The notes under the pieces are model-generated. The model was not told the origin of the DNA and made no database searches. It saw nothing but the letters and a program-made list of their open reading frames with translations. Both the position numbers and the translations under genes were made by a program. 64,000 nucleotides of DNA, taken from the NCBI GenBank assembly GCA_963989385.1, contig OZ022503.1, positions 51,024,858 to 51,088,857 on the forward strand. Direction: 5' to 3'. Shown here piece by piece: positions 3,326-63,489 of the stretch; the first letter of the stretch is position 1; the number at the start of each line of letters is the position of its first letter. This DNA comes from Ctena decussata. Lineage: Eukaryota; Mollusca; Bivalvia; Lucinida; Lucinidae.

Positions 3326-3600
3326 CACGCCGGGCCGCGTAGCGCAATCGGTAGGGCACCTGACTCACAAGTCAGAGGTCCTGGGTTCGAAACCCGGTCT
3401 GGCCACATACTTTCTTTTCTTCTTCCGCTGATTCAAGAAGGGCAGTAGTCAGTTACTGGCGAAAGTATGTGCACTTAGTACTGGTTAACCACTTAGGAGG
3501 TCTAAGGCTGCCCAGGAATAGTGTGGTTAGGTTAACTGACCGTCCCGACATGACCTTAGCTGTTTACCGTGGACGTTAAGCATCAAATCAACCAATTCTC
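3326..3600 (+). repeat. tRNA-derived SINE (family 1)
   Basis: The head at about 3332-3405 is tRNA-like. It has A box tagcgcaatcgg, B box ggttcgaaacc, a perfect 5-bp T stem and a mostly paired acceptor stem. The anticodon arm only pairs with a 6-nt loop, so this is a SINE head rather than a functional tRNA gene. The body (about 3425-3595) contains the conserved string gaagggcag followed by actggcgaaagtatgtgcac and ctggttaaccacttagg. The same body recurs at 16745-17050 (minus) and 17045-17215 (plus). A conserved central domain of the MetaSINE type is a plausible assignment that I could not verify. Confidence 0.75.
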
Positions 3601-3982: not shown

Positions 3983-6113
3983 ATACATAAAGATTAGAAC
4001 ATGTAAAAACGTGGCAAATTTAAAGTAAAATATAAATCATACTGAACATTCTTTACCGGTCCCTTGGCTTATCGATTTTGTTATCTCCCCTGTTTTCCAG
4101 TCTTACCTGTCCAATATCGGGTATTAAGTTTATATAGAAATGTATAGGGAATATTTATATTTATATGAATTTTTTATCTTTTTCAAAATATTTGAATCTT
4201 TTATAACCTATATTCTGAAAGTATAATGCAATACCTACACGATGGTGTTTTTATTTTTCGAAAAAAGTTAATGTTTACTTGCTTCCTTTGGCGTTTAAAT
4301 TACAGACCTATACTGACCATTATACTTAATGGCGAATACAGAAGAATTACGAAATTTTCCATTTTCAGAGCATTTTTCTGATAATTTGGAGCTTTTCTGA
4401 TATTTTTATAACCTTAATTCTGAAAGTCTATAGTCTAAGGATTAATATGATACTTTTATTTTCAAATTAACATTATGTCTTTATGCTTCCCCATGCGTTT
4501 AAAAACCGAAACTTTAAGAGTTTGGCGCTGGTAACTCAATCGCCTAAGTTTAATCATGCGCACTCCTGCATTACTCTTTTGGCTGCTTTATATGAATCGG
4601 ACTAACGAATCAAATTAACCATACTAGGATGAAAGGTAATGAAATAAATAAATAAATAAAGAATTTGATAAGAATTTAATCATTTTGATTCAATTTTTCT
4701 TGAGCACGAAGAATTTTGTTTTAAATTAAGTCCAGAAATTCAAAATCGAAAGTATCACGGTCAGTGTCTAAAAAAGGTAAATAAATAAAAGTAAAATAAA
4801 AGAAAAGAAACAAAAAGGGGAAAAAAAAACTTTGTAAACGTATAATAATTTATTGATTTGTTTGTTAAGTTATTTAAATTAATGTAAACACATTACTTGA
4901 CAGCTAGCGGTCCATTTGATCAGCGATGTAAACATACAATAATTGACAAATTGCTAATGGTGTCAGAGTTTCGGCGGCTACATAGAACGTAAGCAGTTAG
5001 GAAAGTCAAATCGAAAATATGTTGTTGGACAAACTTAATTGATTTCGGGAGATAATACCATTATCATTTTAATATGTTTGTATAGGATTATAGACACATC
5101 ATTAAAGCTCAAACAAGTGAAGCGGTCAGTTTTAGAATATAATTGACTTGATTTGCTCATCATGTCACTTAATGGACGGACGCTCGGCGCCCCGTTACTG
5201 CGGCTATGAACTCGTTCCGCTGAGGTGCGGGGGCAACGTCGATATGAGAATTGAAATACTACTACTCATCATGTCACAAATTAAATTTCTCCACTGATAC
5301 CATATGTTCGTCAACATGGCTTCATCTAAACGTGTTCGCAATAGTGTGGATTAAATAAAATTGCATTAGGGAGAAGTCCTTTCTAGAATCTGTTTGCAAA
5401 AAAGTGTTAAGCGTTCCATTTTTCCAAAGACGTACACAGTAGAGAGGATTATTGCCAGAATCTTCTTATTCTGGAATGGAATTTGCCTAATCTTGTTATT
5501 TTCTCTTTCTTGGCCGTTTTGACCGGAAGCAGAACTACGGTTTTGCATGTTTAAATGCCAATCAGGCGTAACAAGAAGAAAATCATTGTTTTGTATTGTG
5601 ATATGTGTGTATTTAGCATGCATTTATGAGAAAAAAATATGGAATGAATGACTAATTTGAATATTTTCATTACCTCAAAGAACGAAGTATGCGAAAACCT
5701 TTAATTTAGAGTAGGTATGGTCAGACTGGATTATCTCCCCATGTCTTTGGGTCTGAATCACAAATAATCTGATTTCATACGGCTTACATATTTGTGTAAG
5801 CTCTGCTAAGAAAAAAATGCACACTTTATACTTTTGAAAATTCGGACCTGTCGCGCAGGCCTAATGGGGAAAATTCTCGCCTTAATCATAGATGTCCTTT
5901 ATGACGCTGTGTCGCATTGATTCCCCACGTGTCGTCTATTCTCATGATAACCTGTTGGTGCTTCAGATTATCGCCGAAGATTCTTTGATCAGATAAAAAT
6001 GAGAAAATATTGTTTCATTCGACAACAGACTAAACAGTCTGATCAGTGTAAGTGCCTCAGATAAGAAGGGGTAGCAGGGATAATTTGGAAATAATTAACA
6101 AAGCATATGTTGT
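3983..6113. other. no gene recognised
   Basis: AT-rich DNA. The only structure seen is the dispersed motif near 5175-5265. Short frames have no recognisable similarity. Confidence 0.4.
5175..5265 (+). repeat. dispersed ~80-bp motif, copy 2
   Basis: Shares gcggctatgaa, cgttccgc and gcaacgtcgatatgagaatt with copy 1 at 2970-3055. Confidence 0.45.
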
Positions 6114-6160
6114 GACCCCTTATTAGAACCGTCTCACCGAGATGGTTCTAATGAGGGGTC
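6114..6160. repeat. 17-bp perfect hairpin
   Basis: The arms gaccccttattagaacc (6114-6130) and its near-complement (6144-6160) are separated by 13 nt. It could be a transposon end or MITE remnant. No target duplication was identified. Confidence 0.55.
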
Positions 6161-6285
6161 GCTATATATATTTTCATAGAAAAAAAAGGAAGTATCCCTG
6201 AATTATCCTTGAAGGAAAAATTAGTTGAATTACTGCAGAAACAATTGCTGAGTGAATGCCTCAGATTAAATCCATTTGTGGCGAG

Positions 6286-6927
6286 TTAACACTTTTGTGG
6301 ACAGGCCATAGTGAAAGTAAAAAGTATGCAAAGACCAGGAACTGAAACAATCAAAATCCAAATCCAGCCCTCAAACCATAGTTGGAAACAACTAAGATTA
6401 CAAATAATCAAGATACAGAGAACATATGGCCAACAGAGTGAGTAGCTTGTTCCCAAAAGGTGGCCACTCAGCAACCCAAACCGAACCAAAAATAATAAGA
6501 ACATACATAAGGTAAAACATCACAGAAACTCTGACACCAAAAACAGGGAACAGAGAACCACAACAGAACTACCGCCTTGGAACGGTCAGTAATGAATTAC
6601 TGGGGGGCTTAAATCGATTTTACAGGCCCAACCTCACCCTCGGTTTCTGAAGTGGTACAAAACATTTAGTTGGTTGTTCGGTTCGCATGATAACCCTCTA
6701 ACTCGTCAATGAATCATCACGGTAAACACATAAATCAAATTTCAACACCATGAAGAAGCAAAGACGAGGACTCAACAGATACAACGGGCCGTCTGACAGG
6801 TGGAGATCCCTGTCCTGCCAAACGACCCCACTGGAAATCTGAAGCAAAAGAAGGTCACCAGTTGAGCCCCGGTGGACCAAGCAACAGACAAAAAGGCTCC
6901 GGTCCCAACCAACTAAAATATATAGCT
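6286..6927 (-). mobile_element. Penelope-type element, 3' untranslated region
   Basis: Sense-strand sequence downstream of the broken RT frame. It contains the hallmark ctgaccgttccaaggcgg and a gctgagtggccacc block. This 3' UTR recurs at 23820-24110, 25030-26055 (minus), 42366-42720, 47790-48230 and 61550-61830, so it belongs to a multi-copy family that is usually 5'-truncated. Confidence 0.8.
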
Positions 6928-7377
6928 TTAGGTCGGGGCCATCATAGAGTCTGACGACCGATCCCCCGGTGTGCAATTAAAGAGTGCGGCAAAGTTATCA
7001 ACCGTGATTGGGTTAATCACTAAGCATGCAGACTGTCGCATAACATTTAAATTATAGCCAATACGTTTGTGACGTATTATTATTTTTCGGAATTGATCAG
7101 AAAAATCAGTCCTACCCTTAATCTTTTTGAATTTGTATACTAAGTCACCATAAAATTCTGGTTCCGATAGGCCTTGGTGTAAAAGAAATTTTAATCCGAC
7201 ATCAAATTTTGAAACCAATTCATGGTGTCTGCGATAGAATTTAGAAAAAGCCTTTCTAAGCTTATGATACCGATAGCCCTGTAGAAGAAGTTTAGCAGTT
7301 AAACATTTATTACGAGCATTAAAGTCATCTACATGACTACACACTCTAGCAAATCTTATAAGTTGAGAAATATACAC
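6928..7377 (-). pseudogene. Penelope-type polyprotein, C-terminal part
   Basis: This 149-codon frame continues in phase from the RT frame after one in-frame TGA at 7378-7380, so it is the C-terminal part of the same protein. It begins with the VYISQLIRFAR segment that normally follows the RT in this family and contains GYRYHKLRKAFSKFYRRH and EPEFYGDLVYKFKKI. No GIY-YIG endonuclease motif is visible. The same region is present in the truncated copy at 41996-42181. The stop codon that separates it from the RT frame makes this copy inactive unless read through. Confidence 0.75.
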
Positions 7378-8859
7378 TCAATAAGAGGGACGACGTGGAA
7401 CGTCACCATCCAAAAATGGAAAATTAACTATATCAAAGTCAAAGTCATCACGTTTATCATAAATTTTAGAAGATACAAAACCGTTAGAAATAGATAGATG
7501 TAAATCCAAAAAGGGGGCCTCGGTATCTGAAGTATTAGCTTTATTCAATTTAAGTTCAGGTGGGTAAATTTGGTTAACCATGCTTTCAAAATAAGGATTA
7601 TCAATATTCAGAAGATCGTCTAAATATCTAGAGGTTGAGTTAAATGCCTCAATGATATCAGCTTGATTATCAACCGAAAGAGAAGTCATGAAATCTCTTT
7701 CATAACAAAATAAAAACAAATCGGCCACAAGAGGAGCACAATTTGTACCCATCGGAATACCAACAATTTGTCTGTATAACTTATTACCAAATCTGATGTA
7801 AATATTATCTAAGAGATATGATAAGGCGTCACATACATTCTGACTTGACCAAAGACTATATCCTCTATATATTTTACGGTCAGTAGAAGTGAAAAACGCT
7901 TTCTTATCGTTACAGGCAATATAAAGGGTATCTTCATTTTTTGAGAACTTTTTGAAGGCCCTCTCAATCAAATCAACAAGTTTTTCCTTTATTAAATTAT
8001 GGGGTAATGTTGTATAAAGAGTAGAAAAATCATAAGTGGACAAACTAGTTGCACGGAACCCTCTTGACTTCAGTTTACTAAGTACCTCACCAGAATTTTT
8101 TATAGACCAAAACATATTTTTCCCTGACCTCTCATACACTGTCTCATAGTACCAAATGACACGAGATTTCACAGCAGTGAGGCAAGAAGTTAATAATTTA
8201 GATAATTCTGTAGTAGTACAAGAGCTAGAGTTGGCAATGAATCTAGCTTTATACGGTTTTTTGTGAAGCTTAGGTAACCAATACATCGTAGGAAGTTTGT
8301 CTTGGCGTTCCTTAACGTTTACAGCAAACTTTAAAGGCAAATTATTTGAGTGGCTATTAACGACAGTCTTCTCATCTGTAAAAGTCTCTTCGTAAGCCGT
8401 GGTGCCGTTAAGTTCCTGCTTCAAAGTGTTAATATAGTGCATCCGACAAACAACAACAATGTTGTTTGCGGCCTTGTCAGCAGGAACCAAAACATACTTC
8501 CTATGAAAATCCTGGATACCCTGCTTCAAATATCTAAAGGAAGATTTCGGCTTAGGAGGTAAAAGATTAGTATTGTGTGAATAAAACTTTATACGTTTAT
8601 CCACAATATTAAAGATACTTAGTTTCCATTTCTTTAAAGCGTTACTTTCAACACCCTCTCGTTTACACCAACGATTACCAAAATCATTTAATGCAGATGC
8701 AATTTCTTCCCTACATCTGTTGAAATCGATATGGGAAGGGAATCTATACTTAGGACCCTTAGAAACAATGTTACGAATTCTAGAATCCGGAATGATCTTC
8801 AAATTTCCAGTCACAACATGACCTGCTGATGGGTAAATAAATTTGGAATCTTTACAATC
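7378..8859 (-). pseudogene. Penelope-type reverse transcriptase (broken copy)
   Basis: Central RT part of a retroelement protein that would copy element RNA into DNA. Visible motifs in order are YWLPKLHKKPYKARFIANS (fingers), YDFSTLYTTLPH (motif A with its Asp), GIPMGTNCAPLVADLF (motif B), and SRYLDDLL (motif C, catalytic YLDD intact), then FLDLHLS. This motif set matches Penelope-like RTs rather than LINE or LTR RTs. The frame is bounded by in-frame TGA codons at 8860-8862 and 7378-7380, replacing residues that are ordinary sense codons in relatives. The RT core itself looks intact, so decay is recent. Family placement is from pattern recognition only. Confidence 0.8.
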
Positions 8860-53870: not shown

Positions 53871-54803
53871 GTAACGGGATTTGATTTCCGGTTAATATCT
53901 GCCAGTGTAAGACATTGACAATATATACAGAATCTAGGCACAATTTTGTCAGACATTTTTTTTTATTATTATTAACTTTCTGATTGTTCTTTTCTAAGGT
54001 GACGTAAGGCTGTGAATTATAGGGGAGCAATTTCGCCACTAAATTCTTTGTAAATGTAACCTATACTCAATTAAGGTCAACTATCCTTATTCCCTGCGTG
54101 ATGAAGTGCGATAGCCCATGCATTAATTTGTGATAGAATGTAACAGGTTGCATATCTGAGTGGGGAAACTGAGGTATATAGACCTGAATTGTCTTGGCAC
54201 GGATGATACATATTTAGTTTTAAGGTCCGGTTGAGTACCTTGGCACTGCTGTTGCATGACAATCTGTTAGTTCATTAATTCAAACGTTTGTACGTAGTGT
54301 CGTAACCGTTACTGAGGTCCATTTTATGTCCTGATTTAGTAACGTAGGTCACTCGTAACGTTATATAATATCGTAACAATGAATTAAACCTAATAGCAGA
54401 ATCTTAAGTTTGATTTACCGTTGGTATCTTATAAGGTTTTGTAATGTAGAACGTACAGTTGTCGTGTCAGTGTTAATACGTTGCGTTACATACGTTACGT
54501 TTGTATATCCGATACGCTAGATCAAGTTGGGCGTAATTGTAATGTGGGTTATTTACGTCATCTAATTGTGTCATTTAATAGTGAAAAGTAATTCTCGGCA
54601 AAGTCAACGTCAGTTTATGACGTCATTTCCGGTCTGGTATGAACGTAACTTTAATGGCTACGTCCAGATCGCGAGTATACTAATTAATCAACGTTTTAGT
54701 TGGATTAGTTCGTTATTATTATTGTTAACGTTTTAGTTAACGTGTGTGACTATAAGTGAACGTCGGTTTCAGTTAAGTTAACGTGAGCATTACGTTTAGC
54801 GTC

Positions 54804-57398
54804 ATGGATCAGTTAGTTAAGACGGGAAGGGAGTTAGGATATGAAGGGCAGGCGTTGCAGGAATTTGTAAGGCAACAGCAAGAGACTGAAAGGGCAGAAA
54901 GGCACGCGGTAAGGGAACTTGATAAAGAGAAGATCGCGGCGGAGAAAGAGAAGATCGCGGCGGAGAAAGAAAAGATTGCGCAGGCCGAAAAAGACAGGGA
55001 AATTGAGTTAGCTAGGATCGCGCAGGCTGAAAAGGATAGGGAAGTAGAACTAGCTAAGATTGCAGCGGATAGGGAAATCGAGATGGCGCGGATTGAAAGT
55101 ATAGAGCGGCAAGCCGAGAAAGATAGGGAAGCTAGGTTGTCTCAAGTCGAAAGCGATAAGGAAGCAAAGTTGTCGAGCGAAGTTGAGTTAGAAAAGTTGA
55201 AGTACAGTTTTGAATTGCAGCAACGCGAGTTAAAGAATCAGATAGATTTGCAGAAGGTAACGTTTAGAGTTGAATTAGAAAAACAGAAGGCTGAAAAGTT
55301 AGCGCATGCGCGAGATCCCAAATTACCGTATTTTGATGAAAGTAAGGACAAAATGGATAGTTACTTATCAAGGTTTGAGAAATACGCGACGGCGAATAAA
55401 TGGGATAAAAACGTTTGGGCTGCATATTTAAGCGCATTACTTAAAGGTCGCGCGCTTGATGTCTATGATAGATTGTCTGTAGATGATGCAGCGGATTATG
55501 ACAAGTTGAAAGATGCGTTGTTAAAGAATTTTGATATGACTGAACGCGGATTTAGGAAGAAATTTCGCTATGATAGGCCTGAAAAGTCCGAAACGTTTAT
55601 TCAGTTTAGTAGTAGACTTAGGTCGTATCTTAATAAATGGTTGAAAATGGCGAAAGTAGACCAGTCTTACGAAGCTGTTTGCGATTTTTTCGCTAGAGAT
55701 CAGTTTTTAGAATCCTGTAGTAAAGAACTATATGTTCATTTGAAACCGAAAACATTCACAAATCTAGGTGAGATGGCTACGGAAGCAGATTTATTTGCAG
55801 AAGCACGTGGCGGTGTCTACGCTTGTGTTAATAAGGGGCAGCGTGATAGTAAGGGCGTAACTCAGAGTAGATCTGATAATAAGCCGAGTGCGAAGCCGGA
55901 GATAAAATGTAGTATTTGTGCTAAGGGACATTTAACATATAAATGTTTTAAGAATCCCGATAGGAAGCAAGCATATAGTGCGGAGGTAGGTGCAAGTGCA
56001 AGCGGGTATAGCGGAAGTAAGGGGAGTAGTTATGCACCGAAAGATGAGACACAAAGATCACAGAGTAAGAGCGATACTGTGCAGACGAAGGGTAGTAGTT
56101 CAGATCGTGGCCGTGGTCGGGGTTATTCCCGCGGACGTGGTCGGGGTGGCGGACATCAAATGAGCTTTTGTAAAACTACAATGAATAGGTCTCATGAAAT
56201 TGAAGGTCTCTATAAGAGTAAGGAAGAAAGTCCATTAATCAATGATAATGTGGATAGGGAAGGTGTCTGTTACTTTTTAAGGTCGCGAATACCAACAGCG
56301 CAGGGTACGGTTAATGGTAAAACAGTTGTAGTTTTAAGGGACACAGGTTGTACTGGGTGTGTCGTTCGTAGAAACTTGGTTTCTAATGATCAGTTACTTG
56401 GTAGAGAATCTGATGTAACTTTGATTGATGAATCTACCCAAAGGTATCCCTTAGCAATGGTTGACATAGATTGTCCATTTTTCACAGGAAAAACTGAGGC
56501 ATTGTGCATGGAAGATACATTGTATGACCTGGTTATTGGACATATTGACGGGTCAAAACTTCCCGATATGTCCCATTTTGCAATGGCGGCAGTGACTAGG
56601 TCACAAGCTAAGCAAGGTGAAGAGGTCTATAGGAAACTTAAAGTTCCTGATCAAATTATTGCTAGTGACAAGGAGGCATTGAAGCAGGCCCAAGTTGTTG
56701 ACCCTAAATTGAATGGCATAAGGCAAAGAGTGGAATCTGGGAATGTGACTTTTAGTCGTGGATTGAACCGAGGTGAAACTAAGTTTATCCGAAAGAAAGA
56801 TTTATTGTATAGGCAGTTTACTAAGGGAAACAAGGTCACTTTGCAACTTATTATCCCTGAAGGTTTTCGTGAAAAGGTGTTAAGATTGGCGCACGAAACC
56901 TTGATGTCAGGTCATTTGGGCATAAAGAAAACTATGGATAGAGTGTTAACTGAGTTCTTTTGGCCTGGAGTTTGTGGTGATGTGGCAAGGTTTTGTAAAT
57001 CTTGTGACATATGTCAAAGGACTATTCAAAAAGGTCCTGTCACTAAGGTACCTTTAGGAAAGTTGCCACAGATTGACACACCATTTAAACGAGTCGCTGT
57101 TGATATAGTTGGACCGATAGAACCTCGTTCTGACAGGAAATCCTGCTATATTTTAACAATGATATACTATGCGACGAGATATCCCGAGGCGGTAGCGTTA
57201 CCCGGCATTGAGACGGAACGCGTAGCCGAAGCGTTGGTTGAGATGTTCAGTAGATTAGGAATACCGAGTGAAATGCTAATCGAGCATGATAGTAAGATCA
57301 TGATTGACGTCATGAGAGAGGTTAGTAGGTTGTTGTCGCTTCAAGATCTGACAACTATTCCTTATCAATCTACTGGTAAAGGACCCGTGGAGAAATAG
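54804..57398 (+). CDS. Gag-protease-integrase polyprotein (N-terminal part)
   Basis: Chosen start is ATG at 54804; an in-frame GTG lies 21 bases upstream. From the ATG: a charged coiled coil (about residues 25-170, EKEKIA-type repeats), then a Gag core related to the SCAN/Gmr1 group (about 175-345). A zinc-knuckle-like CSICAKGHLTYKC follows at about 368, with an RG-rich tract at about 434-452. The aspartic-protease motif DTGC is at about 513. The H2C2 integrase zinc domain is at about 698-740, and the integrase core with VAVDIVGP (first Asp) at about 765. There is no RT between protease and integrase. The second catalytic Asp position reads IEHDS instead of the usual D-x-G, and the frame ends at TAG 57396-57398 just after the glutamate motif. 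The protein would package element RNA and insert DNA; enzymatic competence is doubtful. Confidence 0.85.
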   Translation: MDQLVKTGRELGYEGQALQEFVRQQQETERAERHAVRELDKEKIAAEKEKIAAEKEKIAQAEKDREIELARIAQAEKDREVELAKIAADREIEMARIESIERQAEKDREARLSQVESDKEAKLSSEVELEKLKYSFELQQRELKNQIDLQKVTFRVELEKQKAEKLAHARDPKLPYFDESKDKMDSYLSRFEKYATANKWDKNVWAAYLSALLKGRALDVYDRLSVDDAADYDKLKDALLKNFDMTERGFRKKFRYDRPEKSETFIQFSSRLRSYLNKWLKMAKVDQSYEAVCDFFARDQFLESCSKELYVHLKPKTFTNLGEMATEADLFAEARGGVYACVNKGQRDSKGVTQSRSDNKPSAKPEIKCSICAKGHLTYKCFKNPDRKQAYSAEVGASASGYSGSKGSSYAPKDETQRSQSKSDTVQTKGSSSDRGRGRGYSRGRGRGGGHQMSFCKTTMNRSHEIEGLYKSKEESPLINDNVDREGVCYFLRSRIPTAQGTVNGKTVVVLRDTGCTGCVVRRNLVSNDQLLGRESDVTLIDESTQRYPLAMVDIDCPFFTGKTEALCMEDTLYDLVIGHIDGSKLPDMSHFAMAAVTRSQAKQGEEVYRKLKVPDQIIASDKEALKQAQVVDPKLNGIRQRVESGNVTFSRGLNRGETKFIRKKDLLYRQFTKGNKVTLQLIIPEGFREKVLRLAHETLMSGHLGIKKTMDRVLTEFFWPGVCGDVARFCKSCDICQRTIQKGPVTKVPLGKLPQIDTPFKRVAVDIVGPIEPRSDRKSCYILTMIYYATRYPEAVALPGIETERVAEALVEMFSRLGIPSEMLIEHDSKIMIDVMREVSRLLSLQDLTTIPYQSTGKGPVEK

Positions 57399-58322
57399 CA
57401 TGATACATTGAAGCAGATATTACGTGAAATGTGCATAGAACGTCCGAATGACTGGGACAGGTATCTCCCAGCATTATTATTCGCAATAAGGGAAGTTCCA
57501 CAAGAGTCGTTAGGTTTTTCCCCGTTTGAACTGTTGTATGGACGTAATGTTAGGGGTCCTATGCAAATATTAAAGGAATTATGGTCTGTAGAGGAAACTG
57601 ACCAACGTGCGTTATTGACGTATCAGTACGTTATTGATTTAAAAGAACGTTTAGAGAGAACGTGTAAGTTAGCACAGGATATTGTCCGAAAAATGGACGT
57701 AAAGCAGAATGCTTATTATGATAAACGCGCGAGGTCGCGTAAGTTTGACGTCGGAGACAAAGTACTTTTGCTACTCCCGAACGAGTGCAATAAATTGTTA
57801 CTTCAATGGAACGGGCCATATGAAGTTGTCGAAGTAGTCAATGCAATGAACTACAAGATTAACGTCAAGGGCGTCGTGAATACTTATCCTGCTAACATGA
57901 TTAAGCAGTACGTTCAACGTCAAAAGAACGTGTCGTCTGCAGTTGTTAATGCACGTGACAATGTTGGATCAGAGGATCACAGTGATCCGAATGTCCAAAG
58001 AGTTAACATTTGTACGTCAGAGGACGTATCCCAATATGACTTCATACGTGAAAACGTAAAGCCCGACGACGTAACGTCGACTCAGAAAACGAATATGGAA
58101 GAACATGGTGGCGATAGTAGGTTGGAGGCAGAGGCAACGGATCCTGTGGGATCTGTCGTGCGAAGTAGGTGTAACGTCAAAGACAGCGTTAATTTTACGT
58201 CTGATACACTAAAAGGTGGCGATTTCCACCTAGTGTTCGATCAGACTTACCCATACTTCCCCATTCCATTTGAGGCACGACAGGTACGACACAGAGAATT
58301 GATTGACTTTGGGATTTGGTAA
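57399..58322 (+). pseudogene. integrase C-terminal part after in-frame TAG
   Basis: In phase with the preceding frame, separated only by the amber codon at 57396-57398. It contains DWDRYLPALLFAIREVPQES and LGFSPFELLYGRNVRGP, the block shared by Gmr1-like integrases. A chromo-like or linker segment (QWNGPYEVVEV) follows, then a tail without similarity to RT. Either the copy is disrupted or the stop is suppressed; nothing nearby resembles a known readthrough signal. Confidence 0.75.
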
Positions 58323-62030: not shown

Positions 62031-62429
62031 ATGCAAAACAATGTTAATAGCAATATTAATATGTTACAGGATTGTCGTCAATACTTATCAGATGTTCCCT
62101 GTACTTGAGTAACTCCTTGGTTTAACCACTTTTTTTTTAGTTTTAAAGTTTAAGAAGTTTACCGCATCTGAAAATACATGCCAAAGTCTCCTACTGACTA
62201 TTAAACTGTATTCTATTTTTAGTCCACGCCATCTTAAGTATACACTTACTACGACAGTGTATTTACTATGGCGCTACGAAACTTTGGCGCTTTCGGAAAT
62301 ATTTTGACAATAGCATATCGTGGTCGTTACTTAATTCGCAACTTTAAAGTTACGATAGCTTCGAGTCAGTGGGCCCAGGTGAGTGTAGCAATTTGCCGTT
62401 TGGTATAAATTAACATAGCCGGTAACTTA

Positions 62430-62653
62430 TGTTACGGGCCAACTCTCCTATCTTCCAATATCTACAATAGTAGATTTGCGCATAGCTTCGTATATATTCA
62501 ATCTCTGACAACTGCGTTAGGGAGTTAACTCTTTGGCTCAGTGGTTAGAGCATTGGACTATCACCCGGGAGTTCCAGGTTCGAATCCCAGTAAACGACTG
62601 AAATTTTTTCAGCTATGCTTTGGTCCGTTTGTTGCGGCAGCAATGTCGTAAGA
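62430..62653 (+). repeat. TRIM 5' LTR
   Basis: 224 bp beginning TGTTACGGGCC and ending GTCGTAAGA. It contains a tRNA-like Pol III unit (see the entry at 62520-62609). Confidence 0.9.
62520..62609 (+). ncRNA. tRNA-like Pol III unit inside the LTR
   Basis: A box TGGCTCAGTGG (62534-62544) and B box GGTTCGAATCC (62577-62587) match the Pol III consensus at the spacing of a tRNA gene. A T6 run (62604-62609) would terminate transcription about 17 nt later. The stems are too poorly paired for a functional tRNA. The same unit recurs at 62826-62915 in the second LTR. This parallels plant Cassandra TRIMs, whose LTRs carry 5S rRNA promoters. Confidence 0.75.
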
Positions 62654-62671
62654 TGGGGGCTCGTCCGGGAT
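62654..62671 (+). other. primer-binding site (tRNA-Pro type)
   Basis: TGGGGGCTCGTCCGGGAT directly follows the 5' LTR. This is the well-known 18-nt complement of the proline tRNA 3' end. Confidence 0.9.
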
Positions 62672-62735
62672 AGGACATTATAAGCCGAAATGGCTTTCAG
62701 TCATCATAAATGATGAGTTCCTTGAAGTGGGGGAG

Positions 62736-62959
62736 TGTTACGGGCCAACTCTCCTATCTTCCAATATCTACAATAGTAGATTTGCGCATAGCTTCGTATA
62801 TATTCAATCTCTGACAACTGCGTTAGGGAGTTAACTCTTTGGCTCAGTGGTTAGAGCATTGGACTATCACCCGGGAGTTCCAGGTTCGAATCCCAGTAAA
62901 CGACTGAAATTTTTTCAGCTATGCTTTGGTCCGTTTGTTGCGGCAGCAATGTCGTAAGA
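62736..62959 (+). repeat. TRIM 3' LTR
   Basis: Identical by eye to 62430-62653; the A box is at 62840-62850, the B box at 62883-62893 and the T6 at 62910-62915. Confidence 0.9.
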
Positions 62960-63489
62960 CTTATTATTCTTATTGTATCAGAACAGTTTGTTATCGCATG
63001 ATATCGTTTTGTTGCGTTTCCGTTGTGTGGCGTCATGATATACACGTTGTATATATATTTGGTATTATAGTGCTTTTTCCTGGAATTACTGCTGGGTTGG
63101 TTGTTCGTACTTTATTTCTATTGTGCCTTTGGATCAACACGGGAACTACGTTACATTGTTACATTGGTTTGACGTTTTTTATCCATATGGGCTGCACTGT
63201 TCTATAAGATTTTATTTATCAGAGATTTATCACATCTGTGCTTGTTTTCAGGCAGATTCCGACTTTGGTATCCCGTGTCTGCGTGTATTGTTGACAAGTC
63301 AACAAGCGCCTGAGCTACATAGGGAACCCGTTTGAGCGCTACATCAAAAGTCTAATACCTCATAGTTATAAGTCCCCGTGTCTTATAGCTGTTCTAGGAG
63401 ACCATCACCTCCATTTGGGGATATTATTCTTTGATCCATCTAGAGTCGATTAAGGCCTGAGGACACGTTTTGTCTATATTTTTATTACT

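Follow-up and report, generated by a model that had tools for sequence, protein, structure and literature searches.

The closest described systems are the Helenus elements (TRIMp3; Kojima 2024, PMC10886601), TRIMs whose two LTRs each contain a tRNA-like sequence and which have a primer-binding site (PBS) and a polypurine tract (PPT). In the parts of that paper available to us they are reported from six animal phyla, molluscs included, with bivalve families among them. The molluscan ones, 51 families, were assigned to Pteriomorphia. Their box A follows the pattern TRGCY...YGG and their box B contains GGTTC, and tRNA-derived SINEs are named as the likely ultimate source of the tRNA-like segment. 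Animal Helenus elements are flanked by 4-bp duplications, tRNA-Pro is among the primers of the bivalve families, and tandem arrays occur in one zebrafish family. The PBS is shared with Gypsy elements, and it is from this PBS similarity that the partner of the animal elements was inferred. The Pol III promoter is a proposal of the same paper, which in these parts offers no demonstration of Pol III transcription. Within an open-access library this was the one paper found to describe Helenus, and one other source, a 2026 meeting report, names it (PMC12859917, available to us in part).

Three further systems share single traits with the element described here; their sources, too, were available in part. 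The bivalve TRIM biv-TRIM (PMC6934838) has TDRs of 202-218 nt and an interior of 77-80 nt, and occurs in tandem arrays and as solo repeats; no clear PBS and no partner are reported in the accessible text. Cassandra (PMC7215508) is a plant TRIM with a 5S-type Pol III promoter in each LTR. In foamy viruses the LTRs carry Pol III A and B boxes in U3, from which miRNAs are made (PMC8674446).

The element lies in a window of 64,000 nt of DNA from the bivalve Ctena decussata (the whole stretch that was analysed; positions are counted from its first letter). A first-pass annotation had placed it at 62426..62963. Reading of the sequence recovered to the base every part that had been claimed, i. e. identical LTRs, PBS, purine tract, CTTA duplication, A box, B box and T6:

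62426-62429, no strand: left target site duplication CTTA, equal to 62960-62963
62430-62653, plus strand: 5' LTR of 224 nt, TGTTAC...GTAAGA, from pairwise comparison with the 3' LTR
62491-62498, plus strand: TATA-like stretch TATATATT, about 29 nt 5' of an assumed start near 62520, by reading; its role is putative
62534-62544, plus strand: A box TGGCTCAGTGG of the 5' LTR, by reading and from an Rfam tRNA match at 62534-62590
62577-62587, plus strand: B box GGTTCGAATCC of the 5' LTR, by reading
62604-62609, plus strand: T6 Pol III terminator of the 5' LTR, by reading
62654-62671, plus strand: PBS, 18 nt, exact, from a pattern search of the window
62654-62735, plus strand: internal region of 82 nt, non-coding, with the inverted repeat TCATCATAAATGATGA, by reading
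62725-62735, plus strand: PPT AAGTGGGGGAG, by reading; the TTCCTTGAAG context is common to the Gypsy partner treated below
62736-62959, plus strand: 3' LTR of 224 nt, identical to the 5' LTR, with the same TATA stretch
62840-62850, 62883-62893 and 62910-62915, plus strand: A box, B box and T6 of the 3' LTR, by reading, each 306 bases 3' of its counterpart in the 5' LTR
62960-62963, no strand: right target site duplication CTTA, by reading

The two LTRs are identical at 224/224 positions, 306 nt apart, and therefore the insertion is likely young. Inside each LTR 32 nt separate the A box from the B box and 16 nt the B box from T6. The PBS follows directly on the 5' LTR and the purine tract directly precedes the 3' LTR. 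The PBS, which we take to be the complement of the 3' end of tRNA-Pro, has no second match in the window, even with 3 mismatches allowed, and no match arose in 100 shuffles. The same 18-mer also matches, at one place in the genome (locus L012, 1443-1518, plus strand), the end of a tRNA-Thr-like gene with the anticodon GGT (ARAGORN). The 3' end of this gene, its encoded CCA included, is the exact complement of the PBS; an encoded CCA is odd for an animal nuclear tRNA.

Helenus elements are smaller than about 1.3 kb and have two LTRs and no coding capacity; the element measures 530 bp, with LTRs of 224 and an interior of 82. As in Helenus, a tRNA-derived box A and box B stand in each LTR (Rfam score of 19.2, below gathering), the PBS adjoins the 5' LTR and the PPT the 3' LTR, the target duplication has 4 bp (exact at 26 of 33 loci), and the PBS is common to an autonomous Gypsy family. 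By anatomy, as distinct from a sequence comparison with the named families, the element is a TRIM of the Helenus kind. The earlier statement that no such animal element had been described fails, because Helenus has been in print since 2024 (PMC10886601) and foamy-virus LTRs carry A and B boxes (PMC8674446). Whereas the animal partner of Helenus was, in the accessible text, deduced from PBS similarity, here the PPT, the LTR tips and hybrid copies also link one Gypsy family to the TRIM. What the present analysis adds is the likely autonomous partner of a Helenus-kind TRIM.

biv-TRIM is similar in size to the element and both form tandem arrays, but its conserved interior motif TGATCCCAAAGGAC is, by reading, absent from 62654-62735, and its PPT is GGGGAGA as opposed to GGGGGAGT here; unlike the element described here, it has no tRNA-like LTR segment mentioned in the available part of PMC6934838. 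Cassandra likewise combines a Pol III promoter in each LTR with short arrays of about three LTRs (PMC7215508, in part), but its promoter segment is derived from 5S rRNA; in 62400-63000, cmscan with a limit of E 1 listed a match to tRNA and none to 5S. In foamy viruses, A and B boxes likewise lie inside an animal LTR, but as miRNA cassettes in the U3 of a coding retrovirus (PMC8674446, in part).

The TRIM family and its likely Gypsy partner

The genome searched comprises 1.66 Gb in 245 contigs. A first search had 361 candidates, and the scoring of 40 of them gave 47 matches. A 24-mer across the LTR-PBS junction was found at 170 places with at most 2 mismatches, among which at least 3 are unusual TRIM-Gypsy joints and arrays are counted more than once; the backwards control gave 0. 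The exact PBS 18-mer occurs at 187 places. Copies of this non-coding element of 530 bases number well over a hundred. The 4-bp target duplication is exact at 26 of the 33 loci with complete ends, shifted by one base at 3 and lacking at 4. Outside this count stood 3 loci whose ends are incomplete and another ten, which were composite, read in part or second views of a place already fetched. Exactly two full LTRs were present at 32 loci, and at 12 of these, among them that of the window copy, the pair is identical. Other copies of the same structure, which the first-pass annotation had proposed to look for, are thus present as a dispersed family, and its judgement that the insertion is young remains likely.

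Variation within the LTR was analysed in 79 full-length LTRs from 38 loci, chosen for spanning positions 1 to at least 223; the best matches of the first search supplied 28 of the loci, and the other 10 were taken from among the 187 exact PBS places, of which the first 30 were used. Shorter hits of L011, L016, L036, L056 and L068 were left out of the LTR counts. Since the sample was drawn from the best matches and the first PBS places, it is biased to young copies like that of the window. Two of the loci, L013 and L014, lie about 7 kb from each other on contig C1 in opposite orientations and seem to be one TRIM insertion, i. e. a local inverted duplication.

The first 30 exact PBS places comprised 12 TRIM copies, 15 copies of another family, one hybrid (L018), one composite (L027) and the tRNA-like gene of L012. 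LTRs of the other family measure about 602 nt, and its interior about 5.1 kb. Fifteen regions were fetched for it (L039-L053); 10 of them have LTR pairs that are at least 99% identical, and in 9 of those 10 a 4-bp duplication was found by eye. It has the same exact 18-nt PBS, preceded by a 3-nt spacer, AAT. The purine-tract context is TTCCTTGAAGAGGGGAAG as against TTCCTTGAAGTGGGGGAG in the TRIM, with 16/18 bases alike. Both LTRs start with TGTTA, and they end in GGTCGTAACA (Gypsy) and TGTCGTAAGA (TRIM), with the common tip GTCGTAA-A. The LTR and interior of the TRIM gave no BLAST match to L039-L053 at E 1e-5; therefore nothing longer is common to the two.

In L053 a single frame of 1606 aa encodes a SCAN-like gag, an integrase (in 4224-5273) and then RT and RNase H (in 5514-6944). 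Integrase before RT is the Gmr1 order (PMC6238403, in part), and by this domain order the family is likened to Gmr1-type Gypsy elements. A pattern for its purine-tract-LTR junction, with up to 2 mismatches allowed, has 267 matches in the genome. A search with its RT in 5.8 billion proteins gave 5977 matches, and the 120 of them that were listed are mostly unnamed; among the matches listed, one of 76% stands in the record of a Lucinoma symbiont. This young Gypsy family with Gmr1 order is likely the autonomous partner of the TRIM. The search for such a partner, also proposed earlier, has thus yielded a strong candidate with the same PBS and similar LTR ends.

In the available parts of their sources, Helenus and Cassandra are known by anatomy, and who copies them is inferred at best (PMC10886601, PMC7215508); a partner was not found for biv-TRIM (PMC6934838) and is called unknown for Cassandra (PMC7215508). 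With a TRIM, a young candidate partner and hybrids of both in one genome, the entry of a Pol III RNA into a Gypsy particle, and the signal for it, become testable. The hybrids also suggest how arrays of the form LTR-interior-LTR-interior-LTR originate.

Arrays, hybrid copies and a possible life cycle

We consider it quite probable that the element is a full-length, young Helenus-kind TRIM with a tRNA-derived Pol III promoter in its LTRs, which is copied and inserted by one Gypsy family. Its RNA would start about 14 nt 5' of the A box in the 5' LTR. T6 should stop Pol III in the 5' LTR, and therefore a genomic RNA needs read-through or Pol II. Some transcripts would read past the first T6 and stop at the T6 of the 3' LTR, in which case the tRNA-like unit itself would be the repeated R end. 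The TRIM RNA may then enter a Gypsy particle, where priming by tRNA-Pro would take place at the 18-nt site common to both families. The cDNA would be integrated with the 4-bp duplication that is observed at the loci.

The same cycle could give rise to composite copies. After the PBS has been copied, the minus strand would end in the 3' sequence of tRNA-Pro and would therefore be able to prime on the PBS of another RNA. Such re-priming would yield TRIM arrays and TRIM-Gypsy hybrids: the LTR and interior of the second RNA would be copied, and plus-strand transfer would close the molecule with the LTRs of the first RNA outside. The product would have its outer LTRs from one parent, its middle LTR from the other and the Gypsy spacer in the middle alone, as found at the C1 locus described below. 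That the Gypsy RT strings co-packaged TRIM and Gypsy RNAs into one cDNA by this PBS relay is a tentative proposal, possible rather than probable. If true, one step would explain TRIM arrays, Gypsy arrays and hybrids joined at the PBS, and TRIMs with a Pol III promoter would be a vehicle for Gypsy genes between TRIM LTRs.

Alternatively, arrays and hybrids could stem from recombination of DNA, by unequal crossing-over or by a circular cDNA at the PBS, and not from re-priming. A one-LTR partner circle recombining at the PBS of a TRIM would give the same order as at the C1 locus, and the arrays of Cassandra have been ascribed to LTR recombination or template switching (PMC7215508, in part). We regard recombination as a conceivable but somewhat doubtful source.

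The arrays bear on this question. Alleles were compared in the four arrays with three full, differing LTRs (L060, L066, L070 and L080) against a reference of 94 LTRs; L068, L081, L082 and the fragments L055 and C9:37990 were left out. In three of the four, the outer LTRs share alleles which are absent from the middle LTR. In L060, LTR1 and LTR3 are identical (224/224) and LTR2 differs at 5 sites, all at 143-176. The alleles common to the outer LTRs and absent in the middle number 3 in L060 and 2 in L066 (nowhere else among the 94); L070 has one, present in 8/94 LTRs. L080 is contrary, as its LTR2 and LTR3 share one allele. The flanks match over 4 bp in L066, L070 and L080, and one base on in L060. 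From the sharing between outer LTRs together with the matching flanks, at least L060 and L066 therefore look inserted as arrays. Crossing-over within one insertion does not predict that outer LTRs share alleles absent from the middle one, and the matching flanks of all four arrays also speak against recombination. So does the length of the PBS, since 18 bp is short for homologous recombination. Together, the joints at the PBS and the sharing between outer LTRs suggest that the parts were reverse-transcribed jointly, with re-priming at the PBS as a possible way.

Among 100 listed places of the partner's purine-tract-LTR junction, at least 4 groups are spaced 5.76-5.92 kb apart on one strand, near the partner's own period (one group lies at C4:40764921-40776565). 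The partner may form arrays as well.

Nine joints between TRIM and Gypsy sequence are located within the PBS or within the seven bases, common to both families, that immediately precede it; seven were read and two were found by pattern only. The pattern partner LTR end-PBS-TRIM interior occurs at 15 places within 3 mismatches, 9 of which are variants of one parent. The 6 true joints (4 exact, one with 1 mismatch and one with 2) comprise four that were read (L018/L056, L083, L084 and L085) and the two on C18 (at 8733660 and 8751715) by pattern only. L018/L056, L083 and L085 continue into a TRIM LTR after the joint, and L084 breaks off 76 bases on into inverted Gypsy sequence. A further joint from partner LTR through PBS to TRIM interior, in L078, switches in the shared GTCGTAA just before the PBS. 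The converse pattern, TRIM LTR-PBS-Gypsy interior, occurs at 8 places within 3 mismatches: 2 direct joints (on C1 and C6, read in L077 and L078), 1 inverted TRIM tip at a Gypsy PBS (C2) and 5 variants.

The locus on C1 (L077 and L056) contains joints of both kinds. It begins with CTGA, a TRIM LTR, the PBS and Gypsy interior to its position 2713, and goes on with part of a diverged Gypsy LTR (its final 337 positions, 79% to L053), the PBS, TRIM interior, a TRIM LTR and CTGA. If the altered first five LTR bases are counted as flank, the direct repeat is 9 bp long (CTGATGTAG) instead of the usual 4 bp. The outer TRIM LTRs are identical at 198/224 positions, and each is closer to other copies. They have one common allele that is found in no other of the 94 LTRs, and two which are present in 8/94. 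The 5' LTR has 4 derived states in common with a broken LTR, L081_3, as against 3 with its own 3' LTR. At these hybrid loci the PBS relay and circle recombination at the PBS predict the same order.

Joints at other places or in inverted orientation are also present (L054, L055 and L084), and therefore some of the joining is not PBS-guided. In the composite L054 (3870-8267), 3.36 kb of inverted Gypsy sequence that starts exactly at its PBS lies between two TRIMs, with CTAT on both sides. The purine tract, the other shared stretch, served as a control. The pattern behind the 267 junctions was the exact TRIM tract followed by the partner LTR, from which the partner's own junction differs at 2 positions; it was found 0 times exactly and 2 times with one mismatch, and these two were read as partner variants. 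This control is partial because the homology there is 16/18 and it covers one pairing direction.

The tRNA-derived segment of the LTR

The stretch from A box to B box is found at two places in the window, and 100 shuffles gave no match. It matches the Rfam tRNA model at positions 8-63 with 19.2 bits, below the gathering score of 29. ARAGORN (bacterial code) found no tRNA in the element, and shuffles of 62520-62609 have predicted folds as good as that of the original (z 0.45). The segment is therefore tRNA-derived, and a functional tRNA was rejected. That each LTR holds a complete Pol III unit, as the first-pass annotation had put it, stands at the level of motifs (A box, B box and T6) and not beyond.

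A T run of at least 4 is kept at the terminator in 77 of the 79 full-length LTRs, and 73/79 have no other T4 run. The partner LTRs (n=8) have 13-16 T4 runs each, with no A or B box by pattern. A[AT]TAAA is present in 0/79 TRIM LTRs as opposed to 8/8 partner LTRs. For low variability across the 79 LTRs, the A box ranks 9 among 214 windows of 11 nt. The B box varies as much as the LTR does elsewhere (in a window that lay one base on), and one of its variable sites is a CpG. This pattern of terminator, T runs and A box fits a use by Pol III without proving it. In the 306-nt unit of the window copy, T6 is the only T run of at least 4, but 15% of shuffles likewise have no other; that absence is by itself not significant (P about 0.15) and was dropped as proof of Pol III use. 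Association between LTR sites, whose decay was meant to map R, did not map it; common polymorphisms crowd at 143-175, with four gametes even 2 bp apart.

A second explanation concerns transcription: the TRIM could be transcribed by Pol II from a TATA box, with the tRNA-like stretch as an inert SINE fossil. The TATA-like stretch stands about 29 nt before the assumed start, where it would probably set the same start for Pol II or Pol III, and both the sub-threshold Rfam score and the variability of the B box agree with a fossil. Yet no LTR in the sample contains A[AT]TAAA, nearly all keep the terminator, the A box is among the least variable windows, and the letters of both boxes fit those conserved across Helenus families (PMC10886601, in part). 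Transcription by Pol II with an inert segment is thus unlikely, and use of the tRNA-derived promoter by Pol III is the reading we prefer. The first-pass annotation had raised the possibility that the tRNA-like segment came from a SINE which inserted at a later time into the ordinary LTR of this copy. This was rejected as extremely improbable: tRNA-derived SINEs are the likely ultimate source of the segment (PMC10886601, in part), but 79/79 LTRs from 38 loci (picked for full span) have the segment at the same place and no shorter LTR match skips it either.

Three other features were noted in the window. At 3333-3405, plus strand, a tRNA match scores above the Rfam threshold (35.4 bits), with a CAC anticodon by reading; it may be a gene or the head of a SINE, and ARAGORN (bacterial code) did not report it. 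An open frame of 493 aa at 7378-8859, minus strand, looks RT-like by eye (YLDDL) and has no Pfam match at E 0.001. Finally, a remnant of another Gypsy element lies at 54777-58322, plus strand, where a stop near 57398 divides it into two frames; its match to a SCAN-like gag is below cut-off, and an integrase zinc domain precedes any RT.
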